The notes beneath the pieces are model-generated. The model did not search any database, was not told the origin of the DNA, and saw nothing but the letters and a program-made list of their open reading frames with translations. Shown in pieces: positions 11,084-33,703 of a stretch of DNA of 33,703 bases. Source of the DNA: an uncultured Geobacteraceae bacterium (GTDB taxonomy: Bacteria; Desulfobacterota; Desulfuromonadia; Geobacterales; Pseudopelobacteraceae); assembly GCA_903930585.1 (NCBI GenBank), contig CAIYZD010000163.1:1-33703 (forward strand), read 5' to 3'. Each line of letters begins with the position of its first letter. Position 1 is the stretch's first letter. The position numbers and the translations under genes are program-made.

Positions 11084-11194
11084 TTGACACAACCGTTATC
11101 ACTATTATACAACTATATAAAATGTAGATTTTATATTCGCTAACTGGACAGCCGGAGGCACTCATCATGATTTTTGATGCGGCCTCCTTTTTTT
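11084..11194 (+). promoter_or_regulatory. Leader-terminator element, copy A
   Basis: A promoter-like TTGACA (11084-11089) is followed after 16 bp by TATACA (11106-11111). After 32 nt comes the mini-hairpin CTGG-ACAG-CCGG (11144-11155), whose last GG also opens the terminator stem GGAGGC (11154-11159) with GCCTCC (11182-11187) and a run of T. The terminator ends 36 bp before the cysteine-rich gene at 11230. An 8-bp dyad TATAAAAT-GTAG-ATTTTATA (11116-11135) overlaps the expected start of transcription and could be an operator. See copies B to H for the conserved pattern. Confidence 0.7.
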
Positions 11195-11229
11195 ATTCAT
11201 AAAAACGTGATCTCAAGGTAAATTGAACC

Positions 11230-11838
11230 ATGATTCATGCCTTATCACATATCAAAACATGCACTTTTCGCCGTTTTAGCGGTTTTTTCCTCACCGTCAT
11301 CTATGGCTTAATTGCTCTTGCGCCACTGGCGCCGGTAACATTGCATTCCAAGACGGTTTTGCATGCGGTGACCGGTGAGTGTGTCGGTGATTGCACGGTC
11401 TGCGGCTGTTCACCGGAAGCACGCGTCAACGGAACCTGCTGCTGCGCGCAGAAACATAAGCTGCAACAGGATCGCACGACAACCGTAACCGGAAGCTGCT
11501 GCGTGCCCAACTCCGCACCCCCCGCTCCATCAACAGCCGCCACTAATAAGAGCTCTTGCTGCAGCGGAAAGAACGGTGAACAGGTCCATGACGGGCATGA
11601 AACTCACGGCCACTCCCCAGACAACAGAACCGTTACCTTACTCAAGTGCGGTTGCCCCTGCGGCAGCGGTAAACAGTTTGCCCTGAGCGGAGTCTCGTTT
11701 GAGTACATCCCTGCGGCAGCATCAATAATCACTGCTCCATATGAGTATATAACAGCTTATGTTATAATTCCTCACCGTGCGCCTTACCGCCACGGGGAAC
11801 CGCCCACTCCTCCTCCCGAACTCTCACAGATTTCCTGA
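11230..11838 (+). CDS. Cysteine-rich exported protein of unknown function
   Basis: A 202-aa protein I do not recognise by family name. It has an N-terminal hydrophobic segment (FFLTVIYGLIALAPLAPV), then clusters of cysteines: CVGDCTVCGC, TCCCAQ, SCCVP, SSCCSG and KCGCPCGSG, plus the histidine stretch HDGHETHGHS. The C-terminus is proline-rich (PPTPPPELS). The spacing suggests a periplasmic or membrane-anchored metal-binding protein. The start at 11230 follows CAAGGTAAATTGAACC. It is the first gene behind leader element A and precedes a group of exported proteins, so it is probably first in its own transcript. Confidence 0.65.
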   Translation: MIHALSHIKTCTFRRFSGFFLTVIYGLIALAPLAPVTLHSKTVLHAVTGECVGDCTVCGCSPEARVNGTCCCAQKHKLQQDRTTTVTGSCCVPNSAPPAPSTAATNKSSCCSGKNGEQVHDGHETHGHSPDNRTVTLLKCGCPCGSGKQFALSGVSFEYIPAAASIITAPYEYITAYVIIPHRAPYRHGEPPTPPPELSQIS

Positions 11839-11967
11839 CAGCTGCTCAATGCGTTCCGGTGCATCGTAAAAACGGTGTTGCCCCGTCCCGAGGTGCGTCC
11901 TCTCTGTAATTTTGTGCAATGAAAAAAATGCAGGGGCGAACTATATCAAAACCAAGGAGATACCTTA

Positions 11968-13626
11968 ATGAAATTTACCACATATCTGCTGTCGTTTATT
12001 CTGATGCTGGCGGTTCTTACCGCGTGCGGCAGTTCTGACGGCACTACTACCCACACTATATTAGTTTCCGGCGTGGTCTTTGCCGGTCCCGCCGACGGAG
12101 TTACCGTCACAGCAAAAACAACCGCCGGGGTAGTCGTTGCAACCTCCGCCTCCTCAGATTCCACCGGTGTTTTCACTGTTGCCATACCCACAACGGCGCT
12201 TTCCGGAGACCTGATCTTCGAGACCACCGGCAGCGGCGCAATCTTTACCGATGAAGCCACCGCCACCTCAACCACTCTGGGAACGCTCAGCGTGTTTGTC
12301 CCGGCCGGAACACTGTCAGCCGGTTCCAGCGTAACCCTCGATCCGTCCAGCACCATCGTCCAGAGACTGATCGCCGGGGGGAAAACCAGAACTGCCGCTT
12401 TCTCCATCTACAGCTCATCATTCGGTTACAAGCCGGACTTCACCATCAAACCGGCCTTTGCCAATATCTCTACCGCGTCAACAACTCCCCAGCGTCTGGC
12501 CGGTTTCCGGGCCGCAGTCTTCAGCCAACTGACGAATGACATCATTGACCCTACCACTGCCAGCACCGGCATCGGCGGAGCGGTCAGACAGTTTGAACTG
12601 CTCCAGGCAATTGCCGATGACCTGTCTGATGGCGTACTGGACGGCAAAAAAAACGGTGGCTCCGTGGTTAAAACCGCATCCAATTTCACCATTCCGGAGG
12701 ACATTCTCAACCAGTACAATGCATCACTACTCAAATTCCAGACAAGCGGCAACAACAAAACCAAACTGACGCCATCCCTGATTAACGCGCCGATCTCCGG
12801 AAAAGTATCCCTGACACCGTCCTACCGCGTCGAGTACGTCCCCCCAACAACCGGTGAATACATCTCCGCTGACACCTTCCAACTGAAGATTACCAAACGG
12901 AGCGACGGCACCGCGGCAACCGGACTCGCCACCAGTATTGTCCTCAACCCGTACATGGTCATGGGGACAATGGGTGGCGGCGGCAACTGGCCGGGCGCTG
13001 TTGTTGAAACCGGTACCCCAGGCACGTATACCGGCACAATCCACTACAGTATGGAAACCTATTGGGGCCTGGACATGTACTGGAAGCTGTACGTCTTTAT
13101 CGGCTCCGAAACAGCTTTATTCTATCCGAATGTAGCAACATTAACAAATATGACCGACACCGTATCAGTCAGTTATTACAACGCCAGTGATCTCACCGGA
13201 ACGTCCAGGCGACGATATCGCATTTGGCGTGAAAGTTTGACCGCCGGTACCGGAGGCACCTACGATCTAACCCTATTCGTATCTGCACCGGATAGTGGAA
13301 CAAGTACGCATGGTTCGGTTTCATCGGCAAACAACTATGCGGTATATGCCGGACAGAACGCATGGGCAAATTCACCTCTCACCATAAATGCGGTAACAGT
13401 TCAGTATTATAACGGTTCTACATGGATCGGTCTCACACCGGTCGGAACAAATACCGGTAAATTCATCGCCAGTTCCCTTCCGCTTACCGCCGGAGCACAG
13501 GGGAGCGTATACCTCCGCCTGATCATTAACGGCACCACCTATACCAACGCCAATACCGGCACAGCATGGGATGCCTCAGACAGCACAACATCCAATGCAG
13601 TTCAAAACTTCAAAGTAACCCCGTAA
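11968..13626 (+). CDS. Large lipoprotein of unknown function
   Basis: A 552-aa lipoprotein with a clear lipobox (LMLAVLTACGSS, Cys at about residue 20) and a strong AAGGAG ribosome site. The first domain (residues about 30-115) looks like a carboxypeptidase-regulatory or surface beta-sandwich (VSGVVFAGPADGVTVTAKTTAGVVVATSASSDSTGVF). The rest is Thr/Ser/Gly-rich, repeatedly beta-stranded and free of obvious catalytic motifs. It ends 13 bp before the barrel gene and is likely co-transcribed with it. A surface or periplasmic binding role is possible; I cannot name the family. Confidence 0.75.
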   Translation: MKFTTYLLSFILMLAVLTACGSSDGTTTHTILVSGVVFAGPADGVTVTAKTTAGVVVATSASSDSTGVFTVAIPTTALSGDLIFETTGSGAIFTDEATATSTTLGTLSVFVPAGTLSAGSSVTLDPSSTIVQRLIAGGKTRTAAFSIYSSSFGYKPDFTIKPAFANISTASTTPQRLAGFRAAVFSQLTNDIIDPTTASTGIGGAVRQFELLQAIADDLSDGVLDGKKNGGSVVKTASNFTIPEDILNQYNASLLKFQTSGNNKTKLTPSLINAPISGKVSLTPSYRVEYVPPTTGEYISADTFQLKITKRSDGTAATGLATSIVLNPYMVMGTMGGGGNWPGAVVETGTPGTYTGTIHYSMETYWGLDMYWKLYVFIGSETALFYPNVATLTNMTDTVSVSYYNASDLTGTSRRRYRIWRESLTAGTGGTYDLTLFVSAPDSGTSTHGSVSSANNYAVYAGQNAWANSPLTINAVTVQYYNGSTWIGLTPVGTNTGKFIASSLPLTAGAQGSVYLRLIINGTTYTNANTGTAWDASDSTTSNAVQNFKVTP

Positions 13627-13639
13627 ACAGGGATAATCC

Positions 13640-15158: not shown

Positions 15159-15173
15159 ATAAAGGAGCGGAAT

Positions 15174-15632
15174 ATGAGAGTACTCGTTGTTGCCGTATAT
15201 CTGTTGCTGTGTACCTTTTTTGCCGGCGTGACCTTTGCCCACCAGGACATCGAGCAGCATCGTTCCTGTGAATATTGCGGCATGGACCGCAAGGTCTACG
15301 GCTACAGCAGGGCGCTGGTCGTGTATGAAGACGGCGGGCAGACCGCGGTTTGCAGTCTACACTGTGCCGTCACCGAATTAAACGCGCACAAGGAAAAGAA
15401 GCTGAAACAATTGCTGGTCGCCGACCGTGATTCACATCAACTGATAGATGTAGAAGACGCTACCTGGGTTACAGGGGGTAATAAACGGGGCGTTATGACC
15501 CATCGACCAAAATGGGCGTTTGCCTCAAAGAAGGGTGCACAGGCATTCATTGATTCCAATGGTGGAACCATCATAACCTGGAGCGAAACATTGTCTGCGG
15601 CAAAAGAGGATGCTGCACCGAATCGGCGTTAA
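15174..15632 (+). CDS. NosL-like exported metal-binding protein, copy 2
   Basis: A 152-aa protein with a signal peptide (to FA, residue 22) and the NosL pattern CEYCGM (Cys32, Cys35), YSRALVVYEDG and CSLHC (Cys60, Cys64), ending with WAFASKKGAQAFIDSNGG. A GGAG site precedes the ATG and the gap to the TlpA-like gene is 15 bp. Copy 2 lacks the histidine tail of copy 1. The arrangement TlpA-like, NosL-like, CcdA-like suggests a redox-supported metal delivery module in which TlpA/CcdA keep the cysteines reduced. Confidence 0.82.
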   Translation: MRVLVVAVYLLLCTFFAGVTFAHQDIEQHRSCEYCGMDRKVYGYSRALVVYEDGGQTAVCSLHCAVTELNAHKEKKLKQLLVADRDSHQLIDVEDATWVTGGNKRGVMTHRPKWAFASKKGAQAFIDSNGGTIITWSETLSAAKEDAAPNRR

Positions 15633-16980: not shown

Positions 16981-17092
16981 TTGACAAAGAAGGGTGCAAA
17001 AGACTATAGAATACTAAAACTGTAGATATAGTATCGGCTAACCGGACAACCGGAGGTCACATCATGCTCATGATGCGACCTCCGGTTTTTTT
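16981..17092 (+). promoter_or_regulatory. Leader-terminator element, copy B
   Basis: TTGACA (16981-16986) and TATAGA (17005-17010) lie 18 bp apart. After 31 nt comes the mini-hairpin CCGG-ACAA-CCGG (17042-17053). Its 3' arm is at the same time the beginning of the terminator arm CCGGAGGTC (17050-17058), which pairs with GACCTCCGG (17077-17085) before a run of seven T. The two structures cannot form together, which is the layout of an antiterminator/terminator switch. A 6-bp dyad ATACTA/TAGTAT (17011-17016, 17029-17034) lies near the expected transcript start. The element is 28 bp from the gene at 17120. Confidence 0.72.
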
Positions 17093-17119
17093 GTTTTTCA
17101 GACTTTGCGGAGCAGTTCG

Positions 17120-17518
17120 ATGGGACTTATTGCCATTGCCACCAGTGATGGAGTCACCATTGACGGGCGGCTCGACACTCCCGGCAGCTATGAAATTTAC
17201 TGTTTTGATGATTACAGGGAATATACCCTGAAAGAACGGCGCACTACGCAACGACATGTTCCTGGCCGAAATCATCAGGTGCTGCCGCAGGAGGCAGCGC
17301 TTCTCCTTGCAGACGTTCAGCTGGTGCTGGTGACCTCTGTACTGCGCGAAACTGAATTGTTTTTGCTTACCAGGGGAATAATGGTTGTGGCCGTTAAAGG
17401 AAGTGTCAGCGAGGCACTGGAAGCGTATCACCGCAGAGGCCGGTTCCTTGACGAACTTCTTGGAAAGCTCCAGCGACCCGTAAAAAAGCATCCGACAGAT
17501 TTGAACTACATCCGGTAA
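17120..17518 (+). CDS. Degenerate NifX-like protein
   Basis: A 132-aa protein whose start MGLIAIATSDGVTIDGRLDTPGSYEIYCFDD aligns with the NifX-like protein at 16126, and whose second half (VQLVLVTSVLRETELFLLTRGIMVVAVKGSVSEALEAY) follows the same fold. The conserved DQHFGRA segment is replaced by DGRLDTP, so the key histidine is missing and cluster binding in the usual way is doubtful. The ATG at 17120 with GGAG nine bases upstream is chosen; a TTG at 17105 is possible. It is first behind leader B, ahead of the tautomerase, DUF1847 and nitroreductase genes. Confidence 0.68.
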   Translation: MGLIAIATSDGVTIDGRLDTPGSYEIYCFDDYREYTLKERRTTQRHVPGRNHQVLPQEAALLLADVQLVLVTSVLRETELFLLTRGIMVVAVKGSVSEALEAYHRRGRFLDELLGKLQRPVKKHPTDLNYIR

Positions 17519-19603: not shown

Positions 19604-20155
19604 ATGAAGAAAACGGTATCCATCATTAGCATATTCTTACTCGCAATAACTGTATCCGTATCGGTATTTGCCGGAACCACTGCGGTTCAAACAAGCGGAA
19701 TCGAATTGCCCGAGAAATGTGACAAGTGCGGTATGAGCCGGATAAAGTTTGCCCACAGCCGTGTACTGGTAGAGTTTGAAGACGGGAGCACCGGAGGGGC
19801 TTGCAGCATTACCTGCGCGTCATACGATATTCGTCAAAAATCGACGAAAAAAGTGAAGCGGCTTCTGGTTGCCGATTATGATGACAGCAAGGTGCTCATA
19901 GATGTCCACGACGCGGTATGGGTGACCGGCGGTAACCTGCCGGGTGTGATGACCAAAATTCCCAAATGGGCCTTTACCAAAAAAGAGGCGGCAGAGCGCT
20001 TCATCAGTTTGCATAGCGGCAAAATCGCCACATTTGACGAGGTGATCGTGGCAGCCAAGCAGGAAACCTGCAAATGCGGAAAACATGGCAACAAAAACGA
20101 CGGAAAAGCTAAACATGGTGATGACGAGGTACCGTGTCATAGCCAGAAATTGTAA
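19604..20155 (+). CDS. NosL-like exported metal-binding protein, copy 3
   Basis: A 183-aa protein with a signal peptide (to VFAG, about residue 24) and the NosL core: CDKCGM (Cys39, Cys42), HSRVLVEFEDG and GACSITC (Cys67, Cys71). The C-terminal tail is extended and holds more metal ligands (ETCKCGKHGN, KAKHGDDEVPCHSQ). It differs from both copy 1 (His-rich tail) and copy 2 (no tail). It is 12 bp after the kinase-like gene and 8 bp before the RarD gene. A dedicated metal chaperone role remains an inference. Confidence 0.82.
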   Translation: MKKTVSIISIFLLAITVSVSVFAGTTAVQTSGIELPEKCDKCGMSRIKFAHSRVLVEFEDGSTGGACSITCASYDIRQKSTKKVKRLLVADYDDSKVLIDVHDAVWVTGGNLPGVMTKIPKWAFTKKEAAERFISLHSGKIATFDEVIVAAKQETCKCGKHGNKNDGKAKHGDDEVPCHSQKL

Positions 20156-22223: not shown

Positions 22224-22376
22224 CCGTATCGAAAACTCAGATCTCAATGAATCCGGAGCTTTCCAATGGATCGCTTGTTGTCATTGAAGAGAACAGAATA
22301 CGCGTCAGGACTCTATGAACGTATTTTAGGTTGACTTCCGGATGACATGCTTATCCGATCTCTTTTTGTTGCTATT

Positions 22377-22408
22377 TACAGGGATAAAAGGGATGAAGGG
22401 GATAAAAC
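22377..22408 (+). repeat. Dispersed repeat, copy 1 (GGGATAAAAGGGATGAAGG type)
   Basis: The stretch ACAGGGATAAAAGGGATGAA and its flank is nearly the exact reverse complement of 29141-29170 (one mismatch over about 29 bases), and both lie beside the string AGCATTTGAA. A shorter relative is at 26733-26790. This is a small dispersed intergenic repeat family. Confidence 0.7.
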
Positions 22409-22425
22409 CTTTAAAAAGCATTTGA

Positions 22426-22743: not shown

Positions 22744-23352
22744 ATGAAAACAATCCTTTACATATCTCGCCACGGTGAGACCGAATGGAACCTTGCCAAA
22801 AAACTTCAGGGACATCAGGACAGCCCGCTTACCGAAAAAGGTCAAATCCAGGCTGAATCTCTGGCGGCAACGTTGAACAACAGACAGATCACCAGGGTGT
22901 ACAGCAGCGATCTGGGGCGTGCAGTGCAGACCGCCCGCGCCGTTGCGAAACATCTGGATGTAGAACTGATCATGGACGAGAGGTTGCGGGAACGGAATTT
23001 CGGCCTCCTGGAAGGCAAGACAAAGGCCGAACTCGATGAAAATCTTTTGCAGGCACGGCGTCGCAGTCACGACCCCGATTACGTCATACCTGGCGGCGAG
23101 AGTTTCAGACAGGCATATGAACGCTCGGTGGCCTGCCTGGAGGAACTGATCGAACAGAACCGGCATACAGCCTTTGCCGTCATTTGTCATGGCGGCATAG
23201 TAAATGGCGTGTTCTACAGGGCACTCCAACTGCCGCTGAGCCACCCCCGCAATTTTTCGCTTACCAATGCCAGTGTGAACAAAATCACCATTGCCGATGG
23301 AAAGTGGTTTCTGGATATTTGGGGCGACGTATCCCATCAGGTTAACCGATGA
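22744..23352 (+). CDS. Phosphoglycerate mutase-family phosphatase
   Basis: A 202-aa histidine phosphatase. The catalytic RHGETEWN motif lies at residues about 9-16, followed by SDLGRAVQTA, RLRERNFGLLEGK and the second histidine in VICHGGIVNGV. This pattern fits GpmB/CobC-like phosphatases, including alpha-ribazole phosphatase; the exact substrate is unclear. The ATG at 22744 is preferred because AGGA lies ahead and the protein begins at the conserved strand; upstream in-frame starts (22699, 22552) would add unconserved residues. Its last 11 bp overlap the end of the minus-strand nitroreductase gene. Confidence 0.87.
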   Translation: MKTILYISRHGETEWNLAKKLQGHQDSPLTEKGQIQAESLAATLNNRQITRVYSSDLGRAVQTARAVAKHLDVELIMDERLRERNFGLLEGKTKAELDENLLQARRRSHDPDYVIPGGESFRQAYERSVACLEELIEQNRHTAFAVICHGGIVNGVFYRALQLPLSHPRNFSLTNASVNKITIADGKWFLDIWGDVSHQVNR

Positions 23353-23914
23353 TGATGTCATCCAGACTCCGCTTCGGAACATAATGAATTCCTGCCTCAT
23401 CCCGGTAGTACTTGATGCTGCCGTCTGGTGCCAAGGATACCAGACGCACCTCTTCCTTCGGCCTGCCCAGGGCGATCACCAGCAGGATCTCCAGATGTTC
23501 CGCAATCCCCAGGACCCTGCGCAGTTCATCCTTGCGTACATTGCCGAACTGGCACCCCCCGAGCCCTTTTTCAGCGGCGCCCAGCAGGATGCTCTGGGCC
23601 GCAATGCCGTGGTCCCAGTAAGGGATCTTGGCAATGTTCTGATCGAACAACACCACAATGTAGCCACCCGGTCGTTCCCCCTCTTCCGGACCATCCCAAT
23701 CCTTTAGATAGCCGGCCCACCCCAACGTGGTAAAAATCTGCGCATTCTGCTCCGGTTCACTGGAAAGAAAATATTTCAGTGACTGCAGATTGCCGCCTGT
23801 GGACGACAGACGCGCCAGATCCACCAGTTCACGAAGTATGCTCCGGTCAAGTGGGTAGTCCTGGTAAAATCTGCGGTAGGTACGGTTCTTACGTACGAGT
23901 TCATTGATGTTCAT
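23342..23914 (-). CDS. Nitroreductase family protein, copy 2
   Basis: A 190-aa FMN-dependent oxidoreductase and the only plus-strand exception in the window. The N-terminus INELVRKNRTYRRFYQDYPLDRSILRELVDLARLSSTGGNLQ and the later GLGGCQFGNVRKDELRRVLGI match the nitroreductase fold. The C-terminus is extended with a short strand (IKYYRDEAGIHYVPKRSLDDIIIG). It converges on, and overlaps by 11 bp, the phosphatase gene. GGAGG precedes its ATG on the minus strand. Upstream on the same strand lies leader element H, so it appears to belong to the same regulon as the other copies. Confidence 0.88.
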   Translation of the reverse strand: MNINELVRKNRTYRRFYQDYPLDRSILRELVDLARLSSTGGNLQSLKYFLSSEPEQNAQIFTTLGWAGYLKDWDGPEEGERPGGYIVVLFDQNIAKIPYWDHGIAAQSILLGAAEKGLGGCQFGNVRKDELRRVLGIAEHLEILLVIALGRPKEEVRLVSLAPDGSIKYYRDEAGIHYVPKRSLDDIIIG

Positions 23915-24019
23915 GATGGCCTCCTGGCAGTTTCATGTATTTTTCCCAGTTGAGATTCACGCTTCCCGGTTGAAAACGGGGTGTAACGGCTCTGTTACGA
24001 CAAAGAAGTCCTCTTGTGT

Positions 24020-24130
24020 AAAAAAAATCGGAAGTTCACAGCATGATTTTCCATGCGAGAACCTCCGGTTTTCCAGTCAGTTTAAGCCTCATTGTTTATT
24101 TGACAATTGTGGCATATATAATCTATGTTA
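24020..24130 (-). promoter_or_regulatory. Leader-terminator element, copy H (minus strand)
   Basis: On the minus strand the mini-hairpin CTGG-AAAA-CCGG (plus-strand 24076 down to 24065) merges into the terminator stem CCGGAGGTTC (24068-24059) paired with GAACTTCCG (24037-24029, one mismatch), followed by A and eight T (24027-24020). TTGTCT and TATATG at a 17-bp spacing can be read upstream. It lies ahead of the minus-strand nitroreductase gene (start at 23914), about 105 bp away. The minus-strand orientation shows that the element follows gene starts and not gene ends. Confidence 0.6.
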
Positions 24131-24261
24131 CATATAGACAACGTGTAGCAAATTAAACAACGACGTGTCAATCAATTTTCTTCACTGTGGGGTACGGTTT
24201 ACCGGAAAAATTTGACTGACCTGATAACAGGAGGCCACGGAGATGATCCTGGTCTTTTTTT
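24100..24261 (+). promoter_or_regulatory. Leader-terminator element, copy C
   Basis: TTGACA (24100-24105) with TATGTT (24124-24129) 18 bp later forms a likely promoter that overlaps the divergent promoter of copy H. The mini-hairpin CCTG-ATAA-CAGG (24220-24231) follows after a longer leader of about 90 nt. The terminator pairs GGCCACGGA (24233-24241) with TCCTGGTC (24247-24254, one bulge) and a run of seven T. It ends 16 bp before the flavoprotein gene at 24278. The 363-bp gap 23915-24277 holds only the two elements C and H. Confidence 0.62.
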
Positions 24262-24277
24262 ATTTTAGGAGACTTTT

Positions 24278-25633
24278 ATGAGTTCTAAAGAAAAGTACGA
24301 TGTGGCGGTAATCGGCGCAGGAGCCAGCGGCACTCTCCTGTCAGCCCAATTCAACAGGCATGCTCCACGCGGCGCACGCCTGACGTTGATCGGCACCGGC
24401 AGCCGTCCGGCACGCGGTGTTGCCTATGAAACCAACTTCCTTGCCAATGTGCTTAACGTTCCGGCAGGAAACATGAGCGCCTTTCCAGATGACCGGGAGC
24501 ATTTTATCCGCTGGCTGAGAAGCCGCATTCCCGGCTCAGATTCCGGAACATTCGCTCCGCGCCTTGTCTACGGCGAATATCTGGAAGGAATTCTCGCTGA
24601 CACCCTGCAAAGAGAGACGGTAACCCTGAGAGACGACAGAGCGGTCAAACTAACCCGCGATACCGACAAATGGCTCGTGCATACGCAGGACGACTCACCT
24701 ATCTCCGCCAACTCGGTCGTAATAGCCATCGGCAATGCGCTTGCACCAGATTCTCCACTGGATATTAGTACCATTCTCCCCTGGTACCGTGGCGTCCCCT
24801 GGTCGCCAGAGGCAATTGAGGGGCTTTCCCGCACCGCTTCGGTCCTGCTCATCGGCACGGGTCTGACAACAGTGGATGTGGCCCTCTCCCTGCGCGAGTC
24901 CGGACATGATGGTCCAATCCATGCCGTATCTCGTCATGGCCGTCTGTACTGCCACCATAAGCCCTATACACCTCAGCCGCTAACAGAAGTGCCGGGAGAG
25001 TTCCGCACCCCTCATGCCGCCCTGCGCTGGACACGTGCTGCTGTCAGTAACCTGCAGAAATCCGGCGGTGACTGGCGTGCGGTGATCGACAGTCTCCGAC
25101 CATATACTGCACAGATATGGAGCAACTGGACATTGAAGCAGAAAAGCTCTTTTTTACGCCACGCCCGCAACCTGTGGGACATTCATCGTCACCGCATGGC
25201 TCCGGAAGTTGCCGGACAGCTGAATACGTTATTGGACAACAGGATTCTCACTATTCACTCCGGGCGCCTGCTCAAGGCTGAGTCAATCGGTACCAAGGCC
25301 CGGATCACCATTCGCCAGACGCATACAAACGAAACTTTTGCCCTGGACGTTGACCGGGTCGTCAACTGCACCGGTCCTTCGCGCAACTACACCAAAACCG
25401 AGATTCCACTGATTGCCAATTTGCGTGATAACGGGTGGCTGACGCCGGATAAGCTGCGCCTTGGCATCGAAACCGGCACAAACGGGCAACTCATCGATAA
25501 AGATGGCAGCTATGTCCCGGACCTCTACACTATCGGTCCACTGCGCATACCGGCCCTGCTCGAATCCATTGCCATTCCGGAGATACGTGTGCAGGCTGAA
25601 GAACTGGCACAACTGCTCGTAAAGCAACATTAA
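24278..25633 (+). CDS. FAD/NAD(P)-binding oxidoreductase (PF13454-like)
   Basis: A 451-aa flavoprotein. VAVIGAGASGTLLSAQF is the FAD-binding Rossmann motif at the N-terminus, and RGVAYETNFLANVLNVPAGNMSAFPDDREHFIRWLR is characteristic of the FAD-NAD(P)-binding family of COG4529 type. A second Rossmann motif (VLLIGTGLTTVDVALSL) near residue 190 binds NAD(P). VVNCTGPSRNY and LYTIGPL near the end are also typical. Substrate unknown. AGGAGACTTTT precedes the ATG directly after terminator C. It lies between two leader elements (C and D) and is probably monocistronic. Confidence 0.86.
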   Translation: MSSKEKYDVAVIGAGASGTLLSAQFNRHAPRGARLTLIGTGSRPARGVAYETNFLANVLNVPAGNMSAFPDDREHFIRWLRSRIPGSDSGTFAPRLVYGEYLEGILADTLQRETVTLRDDRAVKLTRDTDKWLVHTQDDSPISANSVVIAIGNALAPDSPLDISTILPWYRGVPWSPEAIEGLSRTASVLLIGTGLTTVDVALSLRESGHDGPIHAVSRHGRLYCHHKPYTPQPLTEVPGEFRTPHAALRWTRAAVSNLQKSGGDWRAVIDSLRPYTAQIWSNWTLKQKSSFLRHARNLWDIHRHRMAPEVAGQLNTLLDNRILTIHSGRLLKAESIGTKARITIRQTHTNETFALDVDRVVNCTGPSRNYTKTEIPLIANLRDNGWLTPDKLRLGIETGTNGQLIDKDGSYVPDLYTIGPLRIPALLESIAIPEIRVQAEELAQLLVKQH

Positions 25634-25662
25634 GAGGAGAATGTAAATCCGTCAATTTATGC

Positions 25663-25761
25663 TTGCAACGGAAATACGTGCAAGATATTGTATGAGCATG
25701 ACTGCCATAGAATGACTGACCTGACAACAGGAGGCCGAGGATACTGTCCTTGGCCTTTTCT
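25663..25761 (+). promoter_or_regulatory. Leader-terminator element, copy D
   Basis: TTGCAA (25663-25668), 17 bp, TATTGT (25686-25691); 28 nt later the mini-hairpin CCTG-ACAA-CAGG (25720-25731). The terminator pairs GGCCGAGGA (25733-25741) with TCCTTGGCC (25747-25755), including one G-T pair, followed by TTTTCT. It precedes the nitroreductase at 25806 by 45 bp. The conserved string TGACTGACCTGACAACAGG is shared exactly with E and F. Confidence 0.72.
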
Positions 25762-25805
25762 CTAACGAGGCAGGAACGAAACAATTCAAAACGGAAGGAT
25801 ACACC

Positions 25806-26324
25806 ATGGACTTTTACGATGTGATCAAGACGCGGCTCAGCGTCAGGCAGTACACACAGGAACCGGTTGAAGAGGACAAACTGACGCGGGTACTGGAAGC
25901 TGCACGCATTGCCCCATCGGCGGCAAATCGTCAGCCATGGCGCTATATTGTAGTGCGCGACGAAGAAACGAAAAAACGGCTGCAACCTGCCTATGACAAG
26001 GAGTGGTTTTACACCGCGCCGGTGGTTATCGTAGCTTTCGGTGACCCGGCCACAACATGGGTGCGCAAGGATGGGCGCTCCTACATCGATGTCGATGTGA
26101 CCATATCCTTTGACCATCTGGTTCTGGCAGCGGCAGCCGAGGGACTGGGAACCTGCTGGATTGCCAACTTCGATCCGGCAGTTGTCTCGGAAGTTCTGGG
26201 AATTCCGACGAAATACGAGCCGCTGCTGCTCACCCCGCTCGGGTATCCGGGCGTAATTCCGCAGCCGCGCGACCGGAAACCGCTTGATCAGATCGTGTAT
26301 CAGGAGCGCTGGTGTGAGAAGTGA
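25806..26324 (+). CDS. Nitroreductase family protein, copy 3
   Basis: A 172-aa FMN oxidoreductase with the N-terminal pattern VIKTRLSVRQYTQEPVEEDKLTRVLEAARIAPSAANRQPWRYIVV and the later LAAAAEGLGTCWIANFDP, both canonical for nitroreductases. It ends with an RWCEK tail. AAGGA precedes the ATG. It is the first gene behind leader D and is followed by the DUF2164 gene. Among the three nitroreductases it is the closest to the standard short form. Confidence 0.9.
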   Translation: MDFYDVIKTRLSVRQYTQEPVEEDKLTRVLEAARIAPSAANRQPWRYIVVRDEETKKRLQPAYDKEWFYTAPVVIVAFGDPATTWVRKDGRSYIDVDVTISFDHLVLAAAAEGLGTCWIANFDPAVVSEVLGIPTKYEPLLLTPLGYPGVIPQPRDRKPLDQIVYQERWCEK

Positions 26325-26397
26325 GCGTCAAAAAAACCGGGGTTGTACAGACACACTCGTTAACGTATGCTGCGCCAATCATCTGACAAGGACGGTT

Positions 26398-26676
26398 ATG
26401 GAGATCATACTCGCAAAAGATGTGGAACGGAAACTCACCGCTTCTATAAAGCGCTATGTTGCCGAAAACCTTGACACCGACATCGGAGATCTGCAATCCT
26501 CGCTTTTCCTGCAATTCTGCCTGGAGGAGATCGGACCGGCGGTTTACAACCGGGCCATCTCGGATGCCCAGACGTACATGCAGGAAAAGGCACTGGATAT
26601 GGAGAACAGCTGTTTTGCCCCCGAATCCACCTATTGGACCAAGCACGATAAAAATACGCGGCGGCGCAAGGGATGA
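26398..26676 (+). CDS. DUF2164 protein
   Basis: A 92-aa cytoplasmic protein of the DUF2164 family. KRYVAENLDTDIGDLQSSLFLQFCLEEIGPAVYNRAISDAQTYMQE is the family core, and the ending NSCFAPESTYW is also characteristic. No function is established. The ATG at 26398 has AAGGA six bases ahead; the in-frame ATG at 26284 would lie inside the nitroreductase gene and is rejected. It probably shares a transcript with the nitroreductase 73 bp upstream. Confidence 0.85.
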   Translation: MEIILAKDVERKLTASIKRYVAENLDTDIGDLQSSLFLQFCLEEIGPAVYNRAISDAQTYMQEKALDMENSCFAPESTYWTKHDKNTRRRKG

Positions 26677-26732
26677 ACAGCATGCGGATTGATTTTAGAC
26701 GGAGCCAGGGTTACTATTACACTCAGGGACAT

Positions 26733-26793
26733 TCACTTGAACAGGGATGAAGGCCCGCTGTGGGCCTAAATAGATACAAGGGATAACGGCGAT
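26733..26793 (+). repeat. Short relative of the GGGATAA dispersed repeat
   Basis: AACAGGGATGAAGG and AAGGGATAACGGCGATAAAA flank a small stem GGCCCGCTGTGGGCC in the 149-bp gap before pyrE. These strings match those at 22377 and 29069-29170. The stem may act as a terminator for DUF2164, though it has no T-run. Confidence 0.5.
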
Positions 26794-26825
26794 AAAATAA
26801 ACGTCATTGACGAAAGGAGCAACAG

Positions 26826-27506
26826 ATGTCTCAACAGGATTGGAAACCGAAAAACGCAGCGCAGGCACTTGTTGAATTTTCAATTAAAATCGGCTCCCTG
26901 GAGCTGCTGCCCGCTGGCCGCACGTTAAAGAGCGGGCGAGTATCACCATACTTCTTCAACAGTGGATTATTCTGCGATGGTAGCGCGCTGGAATTCCTCG
27001 GTTCATCATATGCGGAGGTCATTGCCAGTTCCGCAATCCCCTACGATGTGGTCTTTGGTCCCGCCTACAAGGGCATTCCCCTGGCCGTGACAACGGCGAT
27101 TCATCTCGCCCGAAAAGGACTTGCCAGCGACTATACGTTCAACCGCAAAGAGGCGAAAGGGCATGGCGAAGGTGGCTTACTCGTCGGAGCGAGTCTCGCC
27201 GGAAAACGTGTCATCATAGCCGATGACGTCATCACCGATGGTGCATCGAAACGCGAAGCCAAGGAGACCATTGAGGCGGCAGGCGGAACCGTAGTCGCCG
27301 TGGTAATCGCTTTTGACCGTCAGGAACGGGGTATCGGGACATTGTCGGCTCTGAAGGAGTTTGAGCAGACCTTTGAAACTCCCGTACTCGCTGCCGCCAC
27401 ACTTTCAGACCTCATCGATGTCATTGAAGCAACCGCTAACGCGCATCCGGAACGAGGCGAAATACTGCCGAAGATACTCGCCTACCGAAGCGAGTTCGGA
27501 GCATAG
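26826..27506 (+). CDS. pyrE: Orotate phosphoribosyltransferase
   Basis: A 226-aa cytoplasmic enzyme of pyrimidine synthesis that joins orotate and PRPP to give OMP. The PRPP loop VIIADDVITDGAS and the FGPAYKGIPLAVTTA and FNRKEAKGHGEGG segments identify PyrE. GRTLKSGRVSPYFFNSGLFCDG is the substrate-binding N-terminal strand region. AAAGGAGC precedes the ATG. Length and motifs are normal. It is the main housekeeping gene of this end of the window and may mark a chromosomal rather than a mobile location. Confidence 0.96.
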   Translation: MSQQDWKPKNAAQALVEFSIKIGSLELLPAGRTLKSGRVSPYFFNSGLFCDGSALEFLGSSYAEVIASSAIPYDVVFGPAYKGIPLAVTTAIHLARKGLASDYTFNRKEAKGHGEGGLLVGASLAGKRVIIADDVITDGASKREAKETIEAAGGTVVAVVIAFDRQERGIGTLSALKEFEQTFETPVLAAATLSDLIDVIEATANAHPERGEILPKILAYRSEFGA

Positions 27507-27541
27507 TGATTAATGGCTGCGAATTGGCTACGAATTGACAC

Positions 27542-27642
27542 TTGATATACACCTGAACTCAAGGTATGGTAGCGAAAATTGTGACCGATCAACTGACTGA
27601 CCTGACAACAGGAGGCCAAGGAACTTTTCCTTGGCCTTTTTT
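27542..27642 (+). promoter_or_regulatory. Leader-terminator element, copy E
   Basis: TTGATA (27542-27547), 17 bp, TATGGT (27565-27570); 30 nt later CCTG-ACAA-CAGG (27601-27612). The terminator GGCCAAGGAA (27614-27623) pairs perfectly with TTCCTTGGCC (27627-27636), followed by six T. It could also end pyrE transcripts, but the promoter match and the shared leader place it with the other copies. The ankyrin gene starts 62 bp later. Confidence 0.75.
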
Positions 27643-27704
27643 GTTCTGCAGAATCTGACATTGGCTTTTGGAGCAGCACCACTCATTCTCCGGAGGAACA
27701 TTGC

Positions 27705-28397
27705 ATGAATAAAATCTTGTTTGCCTCTCTGGCTCTTGTTGTTTTTGCGGCATGCCTGGGGCACGCCGGACTTCCCATAACCAAGCAACTCACGGCATCT
27801 ACCCCGGAAGCCAACTCGCTGTTACAGATGGTTCAGCAAGGCGATCTAAATGGCATCAACTCCCTTTTGGAGAAAAGTCCTGATCTGATTCATGCCACGA
27901 ATGCAGAGGGATACACCGCACTTCATCTTGCAGCCAGACCCGGTTCTGATGGAGTCTTACGACTGTGGATTGACTATTCCCGTATCGTTGAATTTCTTCT
28001 TGAGCATGGGGCAGACGTTAACGCAGTGAATAAGGCTGGTGAAACCCCGTTACATATGGTTACATCCTATGTCGTCCCCCCACATCCTGAAAAATACAAA
28101 CGTAGAGTTATGCCGGTCGGAAGTGTCGGCGGATTGCCGTATGAGATCGTTTTCCCGGAAAAGCAAATGCGCTCTTTACGCGCTATCTTGCGTCACAACC
28201 CTCCAATCAATGCTGCCAGCCAAAATGGTATGACACCTCTGCACTTGGCTGCGTTTCGCGGACATGCAGACATGGTGAAACAGCTTCTTGAAAGTGGAGC
28301 AAATGACCAAGCCGTCACAAAAGACGGTATGACCCCTTTGGCACTGGCACGTATAGGAAAACATGACGACGTCGTTGCGTTACTACGTTCACGTTAA
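27705..28397 (+). CDS. Exported ankyrin-repeat protein
   Basis: A 230-aa protein with an N-terminal export signal (MNKILFASLALVVFAACLGHAG); the FAAC segment could be a weak lipobox, otherwise cleavage follows GHA. Four ankyrin units are visible: NAEGYTALHLAARPG, NKAGETPLHMVTS, SQNGMTPLHLAAFRGHADMVKQLLESGA and TKDGMTPLALARIGKHDDVVALL. An insert of about 45 residues separates the second and third units. Such proteins make protein-protein contacts in the periplasm; partners are unknown. GGAGGA precedes the ATG. It is the only gene directly behind leader E. Confidence 0.87.
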   Translation: MNKILFASLALVVFAACLGHAGLPITKQLTASTPEANSLLQMVQQGDLNGINSLLEKSPDLIHATNAEGYTALHLAARPGSDGVLRLWIDYSRIVEFLLEHGADVNAVNKAGETPLHMVTSYVVPPHPEKYKRRVMPVGSVGGLPYEIVFPEKQMRSLRAILRHNPPINAASQNGMTPLHLAAFRGHADMVKQLLESGANDQAVTKDGMTPLALARIGKHDDVVALLRSR

Positions 28398-28478
28398 GGC
28401 ACGCCTACCGGTCCTGCCCTACCGGCTTGTGTCAGTTTTTGAGAGCACTTTACAGTGAACGGAAAAGGATACTCACTC

Positions 28479-29070
28479 ATGAGACAACACGTTCACGAAG
28501 CGCTTGATGAATCCTCCCGTTCCCTTACCCGGCTCCAGGATGACACCACAACTCTTGCCGTAATCGAGGCCGCCGCCCAGGCCCTGATTGCCACATTCTC
28601 CAATGGCGGTCATGTGTTCAGTTGCGGCAATGGCGGTTCCCTGTGCGATGCCATGCATTTTGCCGAAGAGCTTTCCGGACGGTTTCGTCGCGACCGACCG
28701 GGACTACCGGCCACCGCCATCAGCGACCCGGCCCATATCTCCTGTGTCGCCAACGATTTTGGTTATGACGCGATTTTTTCCCGCTATGATGAGAGTCACG
28801 GCCGCAAAGGGGATGTCCTGCTGGCGATCAGCACCAGCGGCAGCAGCCCCAATGTGATCAAGGCGGCCCAGGCAGCACGGGAGCGGGGCATAAGTCATCG
28901 CCCTGACTGGCAAGTTGCAGGCACCGCTGGAAGAACATGCCGATCATGTCATCTGCACACCAGGCGGCGCTTTCTCCGACCGAGTTCAGGAGCTGCATAT
29001 CAAGGTCATCCACATTCTGGTGGAACTAGTGGAACGGGCACTGTTCCCGGAGAACTACAACATTATTTAA
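28479..29070 (+). pseudogene. gmhA: Phosphoheptose isomerase gene with frameshift
   Basis: The frame from ATG 28479 encodes the first two thirds of GmhA (sedoheptulose-7-phosphate isomerase, LPS heptose pathway): GGHVFSCGNGGSLCDAMHFAEELSGRFR, SCVANDFGYDAIFSRY and GDVLLAISTSGSSPNVIKAAQAARERG. At about 28889-28894 the frame is lost. The shifted frame continues exactly as GmhA would (VIALTGK, then DRVQELHIKVIHILVELVE with the catalytic His region) to TAA 29068. A two-base loss in the ATAA(AA)GTC region explains it. Without correction the C-terminal active site is missing. A sequencing error gives the same picture and cannot be excluded. Confidence 0.82.
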
Positions 29071-29140
29071 CAGGGATGCAGTGGATAACGGCAAATGCCT
29101 ATGAAAAGCATTTGAAACAGCCGTTCAGATTGAAGGTTTC

Positions 29141-29170
29141 ATCCCTTTCATCCCTTTTATCCCTGTAAAA
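29141..29170 (-). repeat. Dispersed repeat, copy 2
   Basis: ATCCCTTTCATCCCTTTTAT and its flank is the reverse complement of 22377-22405 with one mismatch. With AACAGGGATG at 29069-29078 it frames a roughly 100-bp segment with inverted ends, including AAAAGCATTTGAA as at 22413. The layout resembles a small non-coding repeat element lying between gmhA and ddl. Confidence 0.65.
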
Positions 29171-29194
29171 ATGCCTTTATTTTTTTCCGAATGA

Positions 29195-30298
<1,104 letters not shown>

Positions 30299-30312
<14 letters not shown>

Positions 30313-31087
30313 CTCAATCGGCGGAAACTATAACAAAACCCGCAGAGCAGACGAACGGATCGTCGAGGTAATTACCAGACTGCTCAACCTCCCGGAAAAC
30401 GCCGTCATCGCTGACATCGGCGCCGGTTCCGGCAATTATACTTCGGCCATTTCAGCACGTGGTTACCAAGTCAGGGCGGTCGAACCGTCTGAGGCGATGC
30501 GACGGCAGGCGGTGCCCTCGCCGCAGATCGAGTGGTTTCCCGGCGTTGCCGAGCAGATTCCGCTGGCCGATGCATCAGTTGACGGTGTCATCGCCACCAT
30601 GGCGATTCATCATTTCAGCGATCTGAGCAAGGCCTTTGCCGAGATGATTCGCGTCGCGCCGAACGGCCCGATCATTCTCTTTACGTTTGATCCACGGACA
30701 GTAGAGAAGACGTGGTGGATAGCCGACTACTTCCCAACGATCTGGTATGACGCCTTCCGGGCCTTCCCGCCGATCCGCGAACTGGCCGGAATGCTCGAAG
30801 AAGCTGCCGGTCGCATGGTTGATGTTGTTCCGTTTCTTCTGCCCCACGACTTGACCGATAATTTTACTGCCGCAGGGTGGCGTACACCGGAGCGTTATCT
30901 GGACGCCTCATATCGGGACAACATGTCTTCATTCCGGATTACGGATCAGGACATCATCGCCGTGGAACTTGCACGATTGGCACAGGATCTGGCTGACGGA
31001 ACCTGGCAACGGAAGTACGGTCATACACTTTTGTGGGACGAGATAGATGCCGGTTACTGTTTTCTGAAAGTGCGCCCTTCGGTGTAA
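30299..31087 (+). CDS. Class I SAM-dependent methyltransferase
   Basis: A 262-aa methyltransferase of the Methyltransf_11/25 type. VIADIGAGSGNYTSAISARG is motif I, VRAVEPSEAMRRQA motif II, and ADASVDGVIATMAIHHF the post-motif strand. The acceptor is unknown. It begins with GTG after GGAG in the stub overlap. Its N-terminus (MPLYNSIGGNYNKTRRADERI) is typical of this family and supports the start. The next gene, a different methyltransferase, lies 49 bp downstream. Confidence 0.85.
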
Positions 31088-31136
31088 TGGGTATGAGGGG
31101 TACATAGTCAATACAAACAAAAGGGAGGGAAGTAAG

Positions 31137-32054
31137 ATGGAACAGGGGCAGGTAAGTCGCACCGCATTGTCATCAGCTTTTACACGAGCGTATCATGCCG
31201 AACATGGTTCCCCGAAAGTGTTTGACGATTTTCTTGCCAATCGCCTGCTTACTGAAGAGGAAAGCGCTCAGTTCACGCAGTTCATGCTGACAACGATACA
31301 AACGCTCAACCCCGCAGCGGCTGCCGCCTTCCCTGACCAGACGGCTACACTTGAGTGGATGATGCAAAGCTCCGGCGCAACGCCGCTCATGCTCGCCAGG
31401 TCACGGTACACGGAAGAGTGCCTTGAAGAGGCTATCAAGCAGGGAGTCAGTCAATACGTGATTCTTGGCGCGGGAATGGACACCTTTGCGTTTCGCCGAC
31501 CCGAACTGGTGGAGCAGCTTCAATTGTTCGAGGTGGATCACCCCGCCACTCAGACCCATAAGCAGCGGCGCCTGTCCGATCTTGCGTGGGATCTTCCGTC
31601 CCGCCTCCACTTTGTCCCGGTTGACTTCACCAGAGACAGCCTGGCCTCGGCGCTCTCAGTAACCCCGTACAACCCCCTGTTGCCGACACTGTTCAGCTGG
31701 CTCGGAGTTTCCTATTACCTCACCCGTGATGAAGTTTTTGCGGCTCTGCGGGACATAGCCGCGATTGCCCCCGCAGGGAGCAAAGTTATTTTCGATTACC
31801 TTGATACCGACGCCTTTATCCCTCGGAAAGCGGCGCCACGGGCGCTTGGCATGCTCTGGTTTACCCAGCAGGTGGGGGAACCGATGAAAACAGGTTTTGA
31901 TCCGCTGACACTTGACGCCGACCTGGCCGGCATCGGGTTTCGCCTGCATGAAGATTTGAGTCCGATGGATATCCAGAGGCGCTATTTCTCAGGCCGCATC
32001 GATCATTACCGTTCTTGCGAACATGCCCATTATGCCTGTATTAAGGTGAAGTAA
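31137..32054 (+). CDS. SAM-dependent methyltransferase, TIGR00027/LCMT-like
   Basis: A 305-aa methyltransferase of the leucine-carboxyl-methyltransferase-related (PPM/TIGR00027) group. YVILGAGMDTFAFRRPELVEQLQLFEVDHPATQTHKQRRL contains the GxGxDT SAM loop and the acidic EVDHP strand diagnostic of the group. TLFSWLGVSYYLTRDEVFAAL is the matching catalytic region. Such enzymes methylate carboxyl or hydroxyl groups of small natural products; the substrate is unknown. GGGAGGGAAG precedes the ATG. It ends before leader F. Confidence 0.86.
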   Translation: MEQGQVSRTALSSAFTRAYHAEHGSPKVFDDFLANRLLTEEESAQFTQFMLTTIQTLNPAAAAAFPDQTATLEWMMQSSGATPLMLARSRYTEECLEEAIKQGVSQYVILGAGMDTFAFRRPELVEQLQLFEVDHPATQTHKQRRLSDLAWDLPSRLHFVPVDFTRDSLASALSVTPYNPLLPTLFSWLGVSYYLTRDEVFAALRDIAAIAPAGSKVIFDYLDTDAFIPRKAAPRALGMLWFTQQVGEPMKTGFDPLTLDADLAGIGFRLHEDLSPMDIQRRYFSGRIDHYRSCEHAHYACIKVK

Positions 32055-32102
32055 GTTCCAGGAACACAACACAGGATTTGATCAACTGTGTTCAATTGAC
32101 GC

Positions 32103-32202
32103 TTGATATACTACTGAACACAAGGTATGGTGGGCAAAATTGCTGACTAATGATTGACTGACCTGACAACAGGAGGCCAAGGAACTATTCCTTGGCCTTA
32201 TT
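32103..32202 (+). promoter_or_regulatory. Leader-terminator element, copy F
   Basis: TTGATA (32103-32108), 17 bp, TATGGT (32126-32131). A small stem GGCAA-AA-TTGCT (32133-32144) sits in the leader. The mini-hairpin CCTG-ACAA-CAGG (32162-32173) and terminator GGCCAAGGAA/TTCCTTGGCC (32175-32184, 32188-32197) follow. The T-run is interrupted (TTATTACTTTTTT), so termination may be leakier than in E. The NAT gene begins 20 bp later after GGAGG. Confidence 0.75.
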
Positions 32203-32221
32203 ACTTTTTTGGAGGCCCTCA

Positions 32222-33070
32222 ATGGGCTCTGAACATCTTGAAGAACATAATCTTTGCCCGGATGTCGATGCCTACCTGCGTCGGATCGACTACAGAGGTG
32301 ATCTGCGCCCCACAAAACAGGTGCTGGATCAGTTGCACCTGGCCCATGTCACCCATATCCCCTTCGAAAATCTTGATGTTGTGCTGAAGCGTCCGATTCT
32401 TCTCGATCTCGGCACTCTGCAGGCAAAGCTGGTGACGGCCGGCCGTGGCGGCTACTGCTTCGAACAGAACGGGCTCTTTTCCGCAATCCTGCGGGAGATC
32501 GGCTTCAAAGTAACCAATCTGTCGGCCAGGGTTCACTTCCGCTCCACCCATATCCGTCCCCGTACCCATCGCACCTCCCTGGTCGAGGTTTCAGGTGAAC
32601 GGCTCCTGGCCGATGTGGGATTCGGGGCCACCGGGCTGTTCATGCCGGTGCCCATGGACGGGGAACAGGTTAGCAGACAGTATGCCTGGAGTTACCGGGT
32701 CATCGAGCGGGAGGGGCTGCGCATCCTGCAGACCGTGCTGGCAGGGGAGTGGAGCGACCTCTACTCGTTCTCCCTTGATCCTCAGCTTGAAGCTGATTAC
32801 GAGATGGCCAACTATTACGTCTCCACCTATCCCGAATCGCCTTTCGTCAAGGCCCTTACCGTCCAGAAAAGCACCACGGAAGCGCGGCATACGCTACGCG
32901 GCACCGAGTATACCCTGGATCTCGGCAGTCACTTGATACAACAGCAACTGAGCGACGTAACCAACCTTGGAGCATTCATAGCATCAACCTTCGGTGTGGA
33001 GCTGCCGGAAGGGTATCGGTTCGAACTTGATGAAGCGGGCGTGCAGGTGCGGCCATCGGGTGAAAACTGA
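32222..33070 (+). CDS. nat: Arylamine N-acetyltransferase
   Basis: A 282-aa cytosolic enzyme that transfers acetyl from acetyl-CoA to arylamines, hydrazines or N-hydroxyarylamines. The catalytic triad is visible: Cys79 in RGGYCFEQN, His116 in RTHRTSLV and Asp131 in LLADVGFG. IPFENLDVVL is another family signature. The ATG at 32222 with GGAGG eight bases upstream is chosen. Length is normal for bacterial NAT. It lies directly behind leader F with a flavodoxin gene following. Arylamines arise from nitroarene reduction, so a link to the nitroreductases is plausible but is inference. Confidence 0.92.
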   Translation: MGSEHLEEHNLCPDVDAYLRRIDYRGDLRPTKQVLDQLHLAHVTHIPFENLDVVLKRPILLDLGTLQAKLVTAGRGGYCFEQNGLFSAILREIGFKVTNLSARVHFRSTHIRPRTHRTSLVEVSGERLLADVGFGATGLFMPVPMDGEQVSRQYAWSYRVIEREGLRILQTVLAGEWSDLYSFSLDPQLEADYEMANYYVSTYPESPFVKALTVQKSTTEARHTLRGTEYTLDLGSHLIQQQLSDVTNLGAFIASTFGVELPEGYRFELDEAGVQVRPSGEN

Positions 33071-33116
33071 CTACGGACATGATCCAGACAATTCATTAGT
33101 AAACAAGGAGAACAAC

Positions 33117-33593
33117 ATGGCACGTGTACTCGTTACCTATTATTCACGCAGCGGCAACACAAAAAAAATTGCAGAACTGGTATCCGACGGCCTGACAGCA
33201 CTGGGGGTTACGGTAGATCTGATCCCGGTGGAAGAGGTTGATATCGATTCCCTGCCCGGCTACGACGGCTTTATTGTCGGCTCGCCCAACTATTTCGGCA
33301 CTATCGCCTGGCCGGTCAAGAAGTTCATCGACGAGAGCGTCAAGTATTACAAAAAACTGGAAGGTAAAGCAGCTGCCGCCTTTACGTCCGAGGGAATCAT
33401 CGGTGGCGGAGGCGATATCGTGGTGCTGGACATCCTCAAGACCTTCCTGATTCACGGCTGCGTAGTGCAGGGACTGACCGGTATCGGCCACTTCGGCCCG
33501 GTGGCGGTCGGAAAACCGGACGAACGGATCGAGAAGGAAGTAATAATTCTGGTGGAGCGTTTCAGCGCTTTGTTGCAGAAGTTACAGGCGTAA
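33117..33593 (+). CDS. Flavodoxin-fold protein (WrbA-like short form)
   Basis: A 158-aa flavodoxin-like protein. The FMN phosphate loop is YYSRSGNTKKIAELV at the N-terminus, the isoalloxazine loop GSPNYFGTIAWPVKKFIDE follows, and GGGGDIVVLDILKTFLIHGCVV is the third loop region. It could be an electron carrier or an NAD(P)H:quinone/flavin reductase; WrbA-type enzymes are longer. AAGGAG precedes the ATG. It is probably co-transcribed with the NAT gene 46 bp upstream. Confidence 0.87.
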   Translation: MARVLVTYYSRSGNTKKIAELVSDGLTALGVTVDLIPVEEVDIDSLPGYDGFIVGSPNYFGTIAWPVKKFIDESVKYYKKLEGKAAAAFTSEGIIGGGGDIVVLDILKTFLIHGCVVQGLTGIGHFGPVAVGKPDERIEKEVIILVERFSALLQKLQA

Positions 33594-33642
33594 CTGTCAT
33601 GTTGCAAAAGAGCTTGCTCCGGTGCCTGCCGAAAAATGATGC

Positions 33643-33703
33643 TTGATATAGATCAGCTCACAAGGTATTGTGAGCAACATTGCTGACTACCGATTGACTG
33701 ACC
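33643..33703 (+). promoter_or_regulatory. Leader-terminator element, copy G (cut by window end)
   Basis: TTGATA (33643-33648), 17 bp, TATTGT (33666-33671), then the leader stem AGCAA-CA-TTGCT (33673-33684) and TTGACTGACC at the window end, which matches the onset of the mini-hairpin. The -10 region lies in a perfect 8-bp dyad GCTCACAA-GGTA-TTGTGAGC (33656-33675), of which D, E and F retain imperfect versions. The regulated gene is beyond the window. Confidence 0.65.

Follow-up and report, generated by a model that had tools for sequence, protein, structure and literature searches.

A sulfur-linked antiterminator-type leader element in several phyla, with YezD (DUF2292) as its leading candidate factor

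In ribonucleic antiterminator (RAT) elements, the targets of BglG/LicT/SacY proteins, an antiterminator hairpin excludes an intrinsic terminator and is stabilized by the bound protein, and ANTAR targets consist of two hairpins with the critical loop residues A1 and G4 (PMC3369936). In Geobacter, the S-adenosylmethionine (SAM)-I riboswitch (S-box) lies ahead of metIC and metX (PMC545781). Here, we describe a leader element represented at eight sites (A to H) in a 33,703-nucleotide stretch of an uncultured Geobacteraceae bacterium, hereafter the window, which is the whole contig CAIYZD010000163.1 of a 5.9-Mb draft assembly (854 contigs). It is a sulfur-linked antiterminator-type element that occurs in several phyla and matches no Rfam family searched, and the small protein YezD, which contains DUF2292, is the leading candidate for its factor.

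By analogy, the layout of the element is that of a RAT-type antiterminator: its hairpin and an intrinsic terminator are mutually exclusive, and both are supported by covariation. RAT has an asymmetric internal loop, and its sequence probably differs from that of the element. Unlike those of RAT, the targets of the element comprise sulfur genes, not sugar utilization genes, as their largest nameable group, and the candidate partner YezD has DUF2292 in place of a CAT or PRD domain (no search was aimed at a CAT protein encoded elsewhere). The element resembles the leaders controlled by the ANTAR proteins NasR and AmiR in its proposed protein-dependent antitermination before assimilation genes but differs in having one hairpin before the terminator in our model and usually an ANAA loop. 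GnfR of Geobacter is an ANTAR antiterminator, and its control of nif genes was first suggested by nitrogenase-like targets; this candidate was dropped because the element does not follow the ANTAR loop rule and because genes for CysK, MetY, Sbp, and a NIR_SIR-domain reductase are targeted. With SAM-I, the element shares a sulfur regulon and terminator control, but no Rfam SAM model matches it, and at locus L208 the SAM model matches a separate site upstream of yezD. That locus (L208:6222-6333) carries two sulfur switches in one leader, with SAM-I before yezD, the element after it, and metQ next.

The proposal of the initial annotation that the sites form one family of leader attenuators without a described match was borne out. 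Rfam 15 gave 0 matches over the whole window at the gathering threshold, three weak matches, all off the elements, in window positions 24000–33703 (H and C to G) at E ≤5, and no match on the element itself in six cross-phylum loci at E ≤1. Among the papers listed on antitermination and attenuators in sulfur metabolism, nothing described the element, save for one possible sighting: Naville and Gautheret (2010) found in bacilli an attenuator common to a sulfonate ABC transporter operon and an unknown gene (PMC2965389), which, compared by description only, is possibly this element. Five Geobacter riboswitch candidates are counted in PMC11109978, where the yjbM and nifV motifs (three and four representatives) have other targets; an earlier sighting of the element may be among the remaining candidates. 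The excerpt of PMC13194489 contained no description of it.

Two mutually exclusive structures of the leader

All eight sites were present by direct reading of the sequence. Seven (A, B, H, C, D, E, and F) contained a mini-hairpin and a terminator and matched our covariance model R1 with E-values of 2.6e-18 to 8.5e-7 in a whole-genome search, which excluded chance. Since these seven were among the 15 copies from which R1 was built, independent support comes from other genomes. The covariance model and the search of related genomes, which had been suggested as a check, revealed a family with covariation, and we aligned the best 150 of 158 matches, from 78 loci and including a few antisense or weak ones. 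As in the initial annotation, the arms of the four-pair mini-hairpin changed together: it was paired in 99.7% of cells, three of its four pairs changed on both sides, and the third pair was AU in 90 copies, GC in 43, UA in 10, and GU in 4. The terminator was paired in 93.2% of cells. The first and the third loop letters were each A in 139 of the 150 copies, the usual loop being ANAA.

The four-bp mini-hairpin forms just the top of a longer hairpin. A second helix, absent from the initial annotation, is formed by an upstream GCU and the GGC just 3' of the mini-hairpin, and the two helices, separated by a GA/A internal loop, make up a 7-bp hairpin, GCU-[GA]-CYNG-ANAA-CNRG-[A]-GGC. The lower-helix columns were unpaired in R1, by which the copies had been found. 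The first pair of this helix was GC in 113 copies, AU in 19, GU in 7, another combination in 8, and a gap in 3; an A was matched by U and a G by C (Fisher p = 3e-13). Watson–Crick pairs occurred here in 128 of 144 copies (the 150 minus six rows with gaps), compared with 99.6 in shuffles (maximum 111). The A-U cases were spread over many genomes, and the exceptions included six A-C combinations, among them C, D, E, and F of the window.

The distal strand of the hairpin (A-GGC) is the start of the 5' arm of the terminator, and columns 34–36 pair in both structures. Because this GGC is common to the long hairpin and the terminator arm, the two exclude each other. Mean predicted energies over the 144 copies were −6.8 kcal/mol for the hairpin and −19.6 kcal/mol for the terminator, and the terminator, being far stronger, should therefore win without help. 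By eye, no common leader open reading frame was seen; the terminator hairpins of A, B, C, and H contain an ATG, but those of D, E, and F do not. Reading GGAGG as the Shine–Dalgarno sequence of a leader peptide was abandoned, as many copies lack a start codon behind it, and a kink-turn fold for GCUGA..GGAGG, tried on paper, did not fit.

Distribution, target genes, and linkage to yezD

An 18-base core (≤2 mismatches) was found in 11 of 39 genomes, including that of the window. The copies in G014, G025, G028, G031, and G034 had the same anatomy as in the window, mostly with a changed but complementary mini-hairpin (CCAG/CTGG), and core matches in G005, G009, G016, G037, and G038 looked like chance. 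R1 matched 95 of 141 genomes of the order at E ≤0.01, with up to 20 matches per genome, often clustered, and 20 places in the genome of the window at E <1e-4. Among 277 genomes of the class, 122 matched at E ≤0.001 and 68 at E ≤1e-7, the remainder being weak. Tandem pairs of the element preceded one gene at L018, L030, L036, and L118, and three IMG/VR contigs labeled viral (L229, L230, and L231) carried copies with model scores of 41.7–43.5 bits.

Searching genome contigs for the exact pattern GCTGACCNGANAACNGGAGGCC returned at least 80 stretches, in which Geobacter relatives were told apart from the rest by record title and contig. Among the 47 distinct matches listed outside Geobacter relatives, the free third pair was complementary in 43, against an expectation of 6 of 16, and R1 found terminators behind many of these matches. 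Besides Geobacter relatives and Bacilli, the record labels of the copies included Chloroflexi, Planctomycetes, Actinomycetota, and others. Ten non-Geobacter downstream genes were checked and encoded Sat, CysH (two), MsrA, MetY, CysK, a cystathionine-type enzyme, and MetQ-like, TauC-like, and SsuA-like proteins. Matches at L155, L161, L166, L174, and L176 were judged by eye to be likely chance matches, as they lay within genes or lacked terminators. In Bacilli, all 18 distinct cores (52 loci) formed all seven pairs, with A-U, U-A, and C-G changes, when a loop of 4 or 5 was picked for best pairing; the first lower pair was A-U in two of the 18.

For the aligned copies, target genes were assigned at 147 of the 150 sites by an open reading frame heuristic and grouped by BLAST, and some group representatives were checked with Pfam/NCBIfam. 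The initial annotation had associated the element with redox, metal-binding, or unknown genes; overall, the largest nameable group consisted of sulfur-acquisition clusters (40 of 147 sites). These targets encoded cysteine synthase (9), a nitrate/sulfonate/taurine-type ABC ATPase (8), methionine adenosyltransferase (8), rhodanese (5), O-acetylhomoserine sulfhydrylase (4), a NIR_SIR-domain reductase (3), an SsuA-like protein (2), and a sulfate-binding protein (1). The ABC ATPase representative matched nitrate/taurine/sulfonate-type models, all below cut-offs, and the NIR_SIR representative scored highest with CobG and NirA, also below cut-off. A second metK paralogue lay just behind an element match in G014 (C142:69947-71110) and G101 (C238:1044-2204), the main metK being elsewhere. 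Nitrogenase-like or NifB/NifX-like targets accounted for 28 sites (15, 7, 5, and 1); these may resemble methylthio-alkane reductase genes. Rrf2 regulators were the targets at four sites. The distance from terminator to start codon had a median of 53 nt and was 15–150 nt at 124 of the 147 sites.

Upstream sequences were compared with shuffles that preserve base composition only. Promoter-like pairs scoring at least 10 were present at 25 of 146 sites (5.6 in shuffles), and a CTAYA-N5-TRTAG dyad at 50 sites with at least 9 of 10 positions (2.75) and at 20 sites with 10 of 10 (0.0). About one-third of the copies in Geobacter relatives had this dyad near the promoter. The dyad is likely a repressor site and may be one of the Rrf2 type. 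A second promoter class (TTGATA-17-TATGGT or TATTGT) without a good dyad was found at E (27542), F (32103), G (33643), and two copies in G096 (L026 and L074), which suggests a locally spreading subtype. The unit had been described as promoter, leader, and terminator, with 28–32 nt between promoter and mini-hairpin at six of the eight sites; we found instead that the unit is hairpin plus terminator and that the spacing is not fixed, many other copies lying directly behind a gene, often yezD.

A small DUF2292-type open reading frame (PF10055) precedes many cross-phylum copies. We examined 40 DUF2292 genes, namely each second entry among the first 79 of a genome-wide list, picked regardless of the element: a same-strand element was located 29–127 nt downstream of 25, where about 0.9 would be expected within 150 nt. 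In 101 genomes of a Bacilli family, searched with a model trained only on Geobacter relatives, 41 of 98 DUF2292 genes had the element no more than 300 nt downstream (0.003 expected), and six had it just upstream. The usual order in Bacilli loci was yezD, element, and a cysH-like gene (by eye; one checked). Across the 277 genomes of the class, with the element counted at E ≤1e-7, 58 had both, 10 the element only, 10 yezD only, and 199 neither (odds ratio 115); the corresponding numbers in the genus were 15, 1, 0, and 23. The association held in genomes with the sulfate-binding protein Sbp (52/8/9/28, same order) and in those without it (6/2/1/171), and element and Sbp were unassociated among DUF2292-positive genomes (52/6/9/1). 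DUF2292 was present in 32 of 41 genomes chosen from the pattern stretches, a choice that left out Geobacter relatives and others (e.g., L149, L151, L156, L159, L162, L185, and L226); the nine without it comprised the genomes of L150, L182, L220, and L228 and the five with chance matches.

YezD has approximately 50–60 residues, and a search of the PDB by sequence gave no convincing relative. DUF2292 is named in passing in a B. subtilis strain table (PMC7953295) and in a Pseudomonas fragi biofilm transcriptome (PMC7921472), and yezD is up-regulated in deep starvation of B. subtilis, its deletion having no effect on viability (PMC6385201).

Copies in the window

The coordinates of the window features are listed in Table 1. 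Repeat finding or motif search recovered B to G at least partly and did not recover A and H. The consensus promoter scan at A preferred the pair at 11096–11123 over the TTGACA at 11084. F was 83% identical to E over 109 nt, promoter included. At site G, the contig breaks off at 33703 within the motif (TGACTGACC), and the hairpin and terminator of this copy would lie beyond the available sequence. The sulfur theme was not visible in the checked window targets, which encode nitroreductases, FAD-NAD(P)-binding, ankyrin, and arylamine N-acetyltransferase proteins and two unknowns. The window also contains three similar NosL-like genes with a CxxCGM motif (10498–11058, 15174–15632, and 19604–20155; Pfam check on the first only) and a 40-nt inverted repeat at 22375–22414 and 29130–29169, 93% complementary and 6.7 kb apart.

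Table 1. Element copies, associated upstream sequences, and downstream genes in the window
Feature	Position	Strand	Description
Promoter-like pair of A	11084..11111	+	TTGACA-16-TATACA, by eye
Operator-like dyad near promoter of A	11113..11127		CTATATAAAATGTAG; 10/10 match to CTAYA-N5-TRTAG
Element A	11137..11194	+	Putative antiterminator hairpin 11139–11159 (GCU/GGC plus CUGG/CCGG); terminator from 11156
Gene after A	11230..11838	+	Cys-rich unknown protein; no Pfam/NCBIfam match
Element B	17035..17094	+	3' arm of mini-hairpin within terminator stem (AACCGGAGGTC...)
Gene after B	17120..17518	+	Unknown; no Pfam match read from 17123; NifX likeness by eye only
Gene after H	23342..23914	-	Nitroreductase family
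Element H	24020..24083	-	First pair of lower helix A-U
Operator-like dyad common to divergent C and H leaders	24123..24137		CTATGTTACATATAG; 9/10
Element C	24213..24262	+	Lower helix 2 bp; A-C mismatch at first pair
Gene after C	24278..25633	+	FAD-NAD(P)-binding protein
Element D	25713..25762	+	A-C mismatch at lower-helix first pair
Gene after D	25806..26324	+	Nitroreductase family
Element E	27594..27643	+	A-C mismatch at lower-helix first pair
Gene after E	27705..28397	+	Ankyrin-repeat protein
Element F	32155..32204	+	A-C mismatch at lower-helix first pair
Gene after F	32222..33070	+	Arylamine N-acetyltransferase family
Element G	33643..33703	+	Promoter-like pair and first motif bases only; contig end

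Proposed mode of action and alternatives

We consider it probable that the element acts as a RAT-like antiterminator of transcription in a regulon for sulfur limitation; its default would be off, and the leading candidate for the factor turning it on is YezD. The nascent leader would fold into either the 7-bp hairpin or the intrinsic terminator, and the far greater predicted strength of the latter would make OFF the default state in the cell. Readthrough would depend on a factor that binds the hairpin, probably via the conserved GA/A internal loop and ANAA loop; the bound hairpin would block the terminator, and the gene would be transcribed. YezD, whose gene is commonly found just upstream of an element copy and before the attenuated gene, is the most likely factor and would bind the hairpin RNA. 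Sulfur limitation would be the signal. As yezD lies upstream of the terminator, YezD can be made before the terminator is reached. Tentatively, YezD may be the founder of a new family of tiny RNA-binding antiterminators, which together with the hairpin would form a sulfur-limitation switch in many phyla.

Several observations weigh against this interpretation. The lower helix of C, D, E, and F in the window has an A-C mismatch, and 75 of the 147 downstream genes are neither sulfur, nitrogenase-like, nor Rrf2 genes but include porins, corrinoid proteins, efflux parts, and unknowns. Five YezD proteins tested match only PF10055, and the structure model of YezD, of moderate confidence (mean predicted local distance difference test score 74.9, approximately 86 in residues 11–40), consists of one helix and a beta-hairpin. 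Of the 108 model matches in Bacilli, 61 do not adjoin DUF2292; many of the weak matches may be chance. The Fisher tests ignore shared ancestry. Among the 68 genomes with strong elements, 10 lack DUF2292, some of them nearly complete (G040, five matches, 98%; G119, two matches, 100%), and ten yezD genomes lack strong elements. Element and Sbp are associated among DUF2292-negative genomes (8/2/28/171), which indicates that membership in the sulfur regulon matters on its own. Together with the accessory metK paralogue, the ten genomes that carry the element but no DUF2292 would allow for a joint loss, in which element and yezD disappeared with a single accessory regulon to which both belonged and did not need to be in contact.

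The same ten genomes, the tandem copies, and the strong conservation of loop and internal-loop sequence over phyla would also fit a metabolite riboswitch that requires no protein: the 7-bp hairpin would serve as an aptamer that overlaps the terminator and senses a small molecule related to sulfur, and YezD would be a mere regulon mate, often encoded early in its operon. Tandem arrangement is known for some riboswitches. We regard this explanation as rather unlikely; it does not account for the frequency with which yezD directly precedes the element in two phyla or for a co-occurrence that persists given Sbp, and the hairpin is smaller than most known aptamers. The initial annotation had named attenuator and riboswitch as alternatives: the attenuator stands, and given the link to YezD, an antiterminator that depends on a protein is no less likely than a metabolite riboswitch.

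Another RNA-binding protein, or translation of the upstream open reading frame, would be an improbable basis of control. Ribosomes ending yezD would in the latter case cover the 5' strand of the hairpin and favor termination, as the Bacilli loci (L285–L317) might suggest, 21 of 40 of which have the yezD stop codon within the element, ending at +7 or +11. Copies in Geobacter relatives, however, have promoter-like and dyad sequences of their own without yezD just upstream, and the spacing between yezD and the element there ranges from 29 to 127 nt. That the copies are ordinary terminators or a dispersed repeat without regulation is very improbable. Some lie behind genes, and E, F, and G are similar local duplicates, but two alternative helices covary, the loops are conserved across phyla, the copies are positioned ahead of genes, and the divergent C and H each face their own gene. 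Copies lying mostly behind gene ends had been named as a sign of ordinary terminators; many do lie behind yezD, yet they precede genes and keep the covarying structure.

If the proposed antitermination by YezD is true, the element would be an RNA switch of the sulfur regulon that is separate from the S-box and extends across several phyla, and DUF2292, a widespread unknown protein family, would obtain its first function and a concrete, testable role. It would also provide a handle on how the scavenging of sulfonates and organosulfur compounds is switched on in anaerobes and soil bacteria, perhaps together with nitrogenase-like enzymes.

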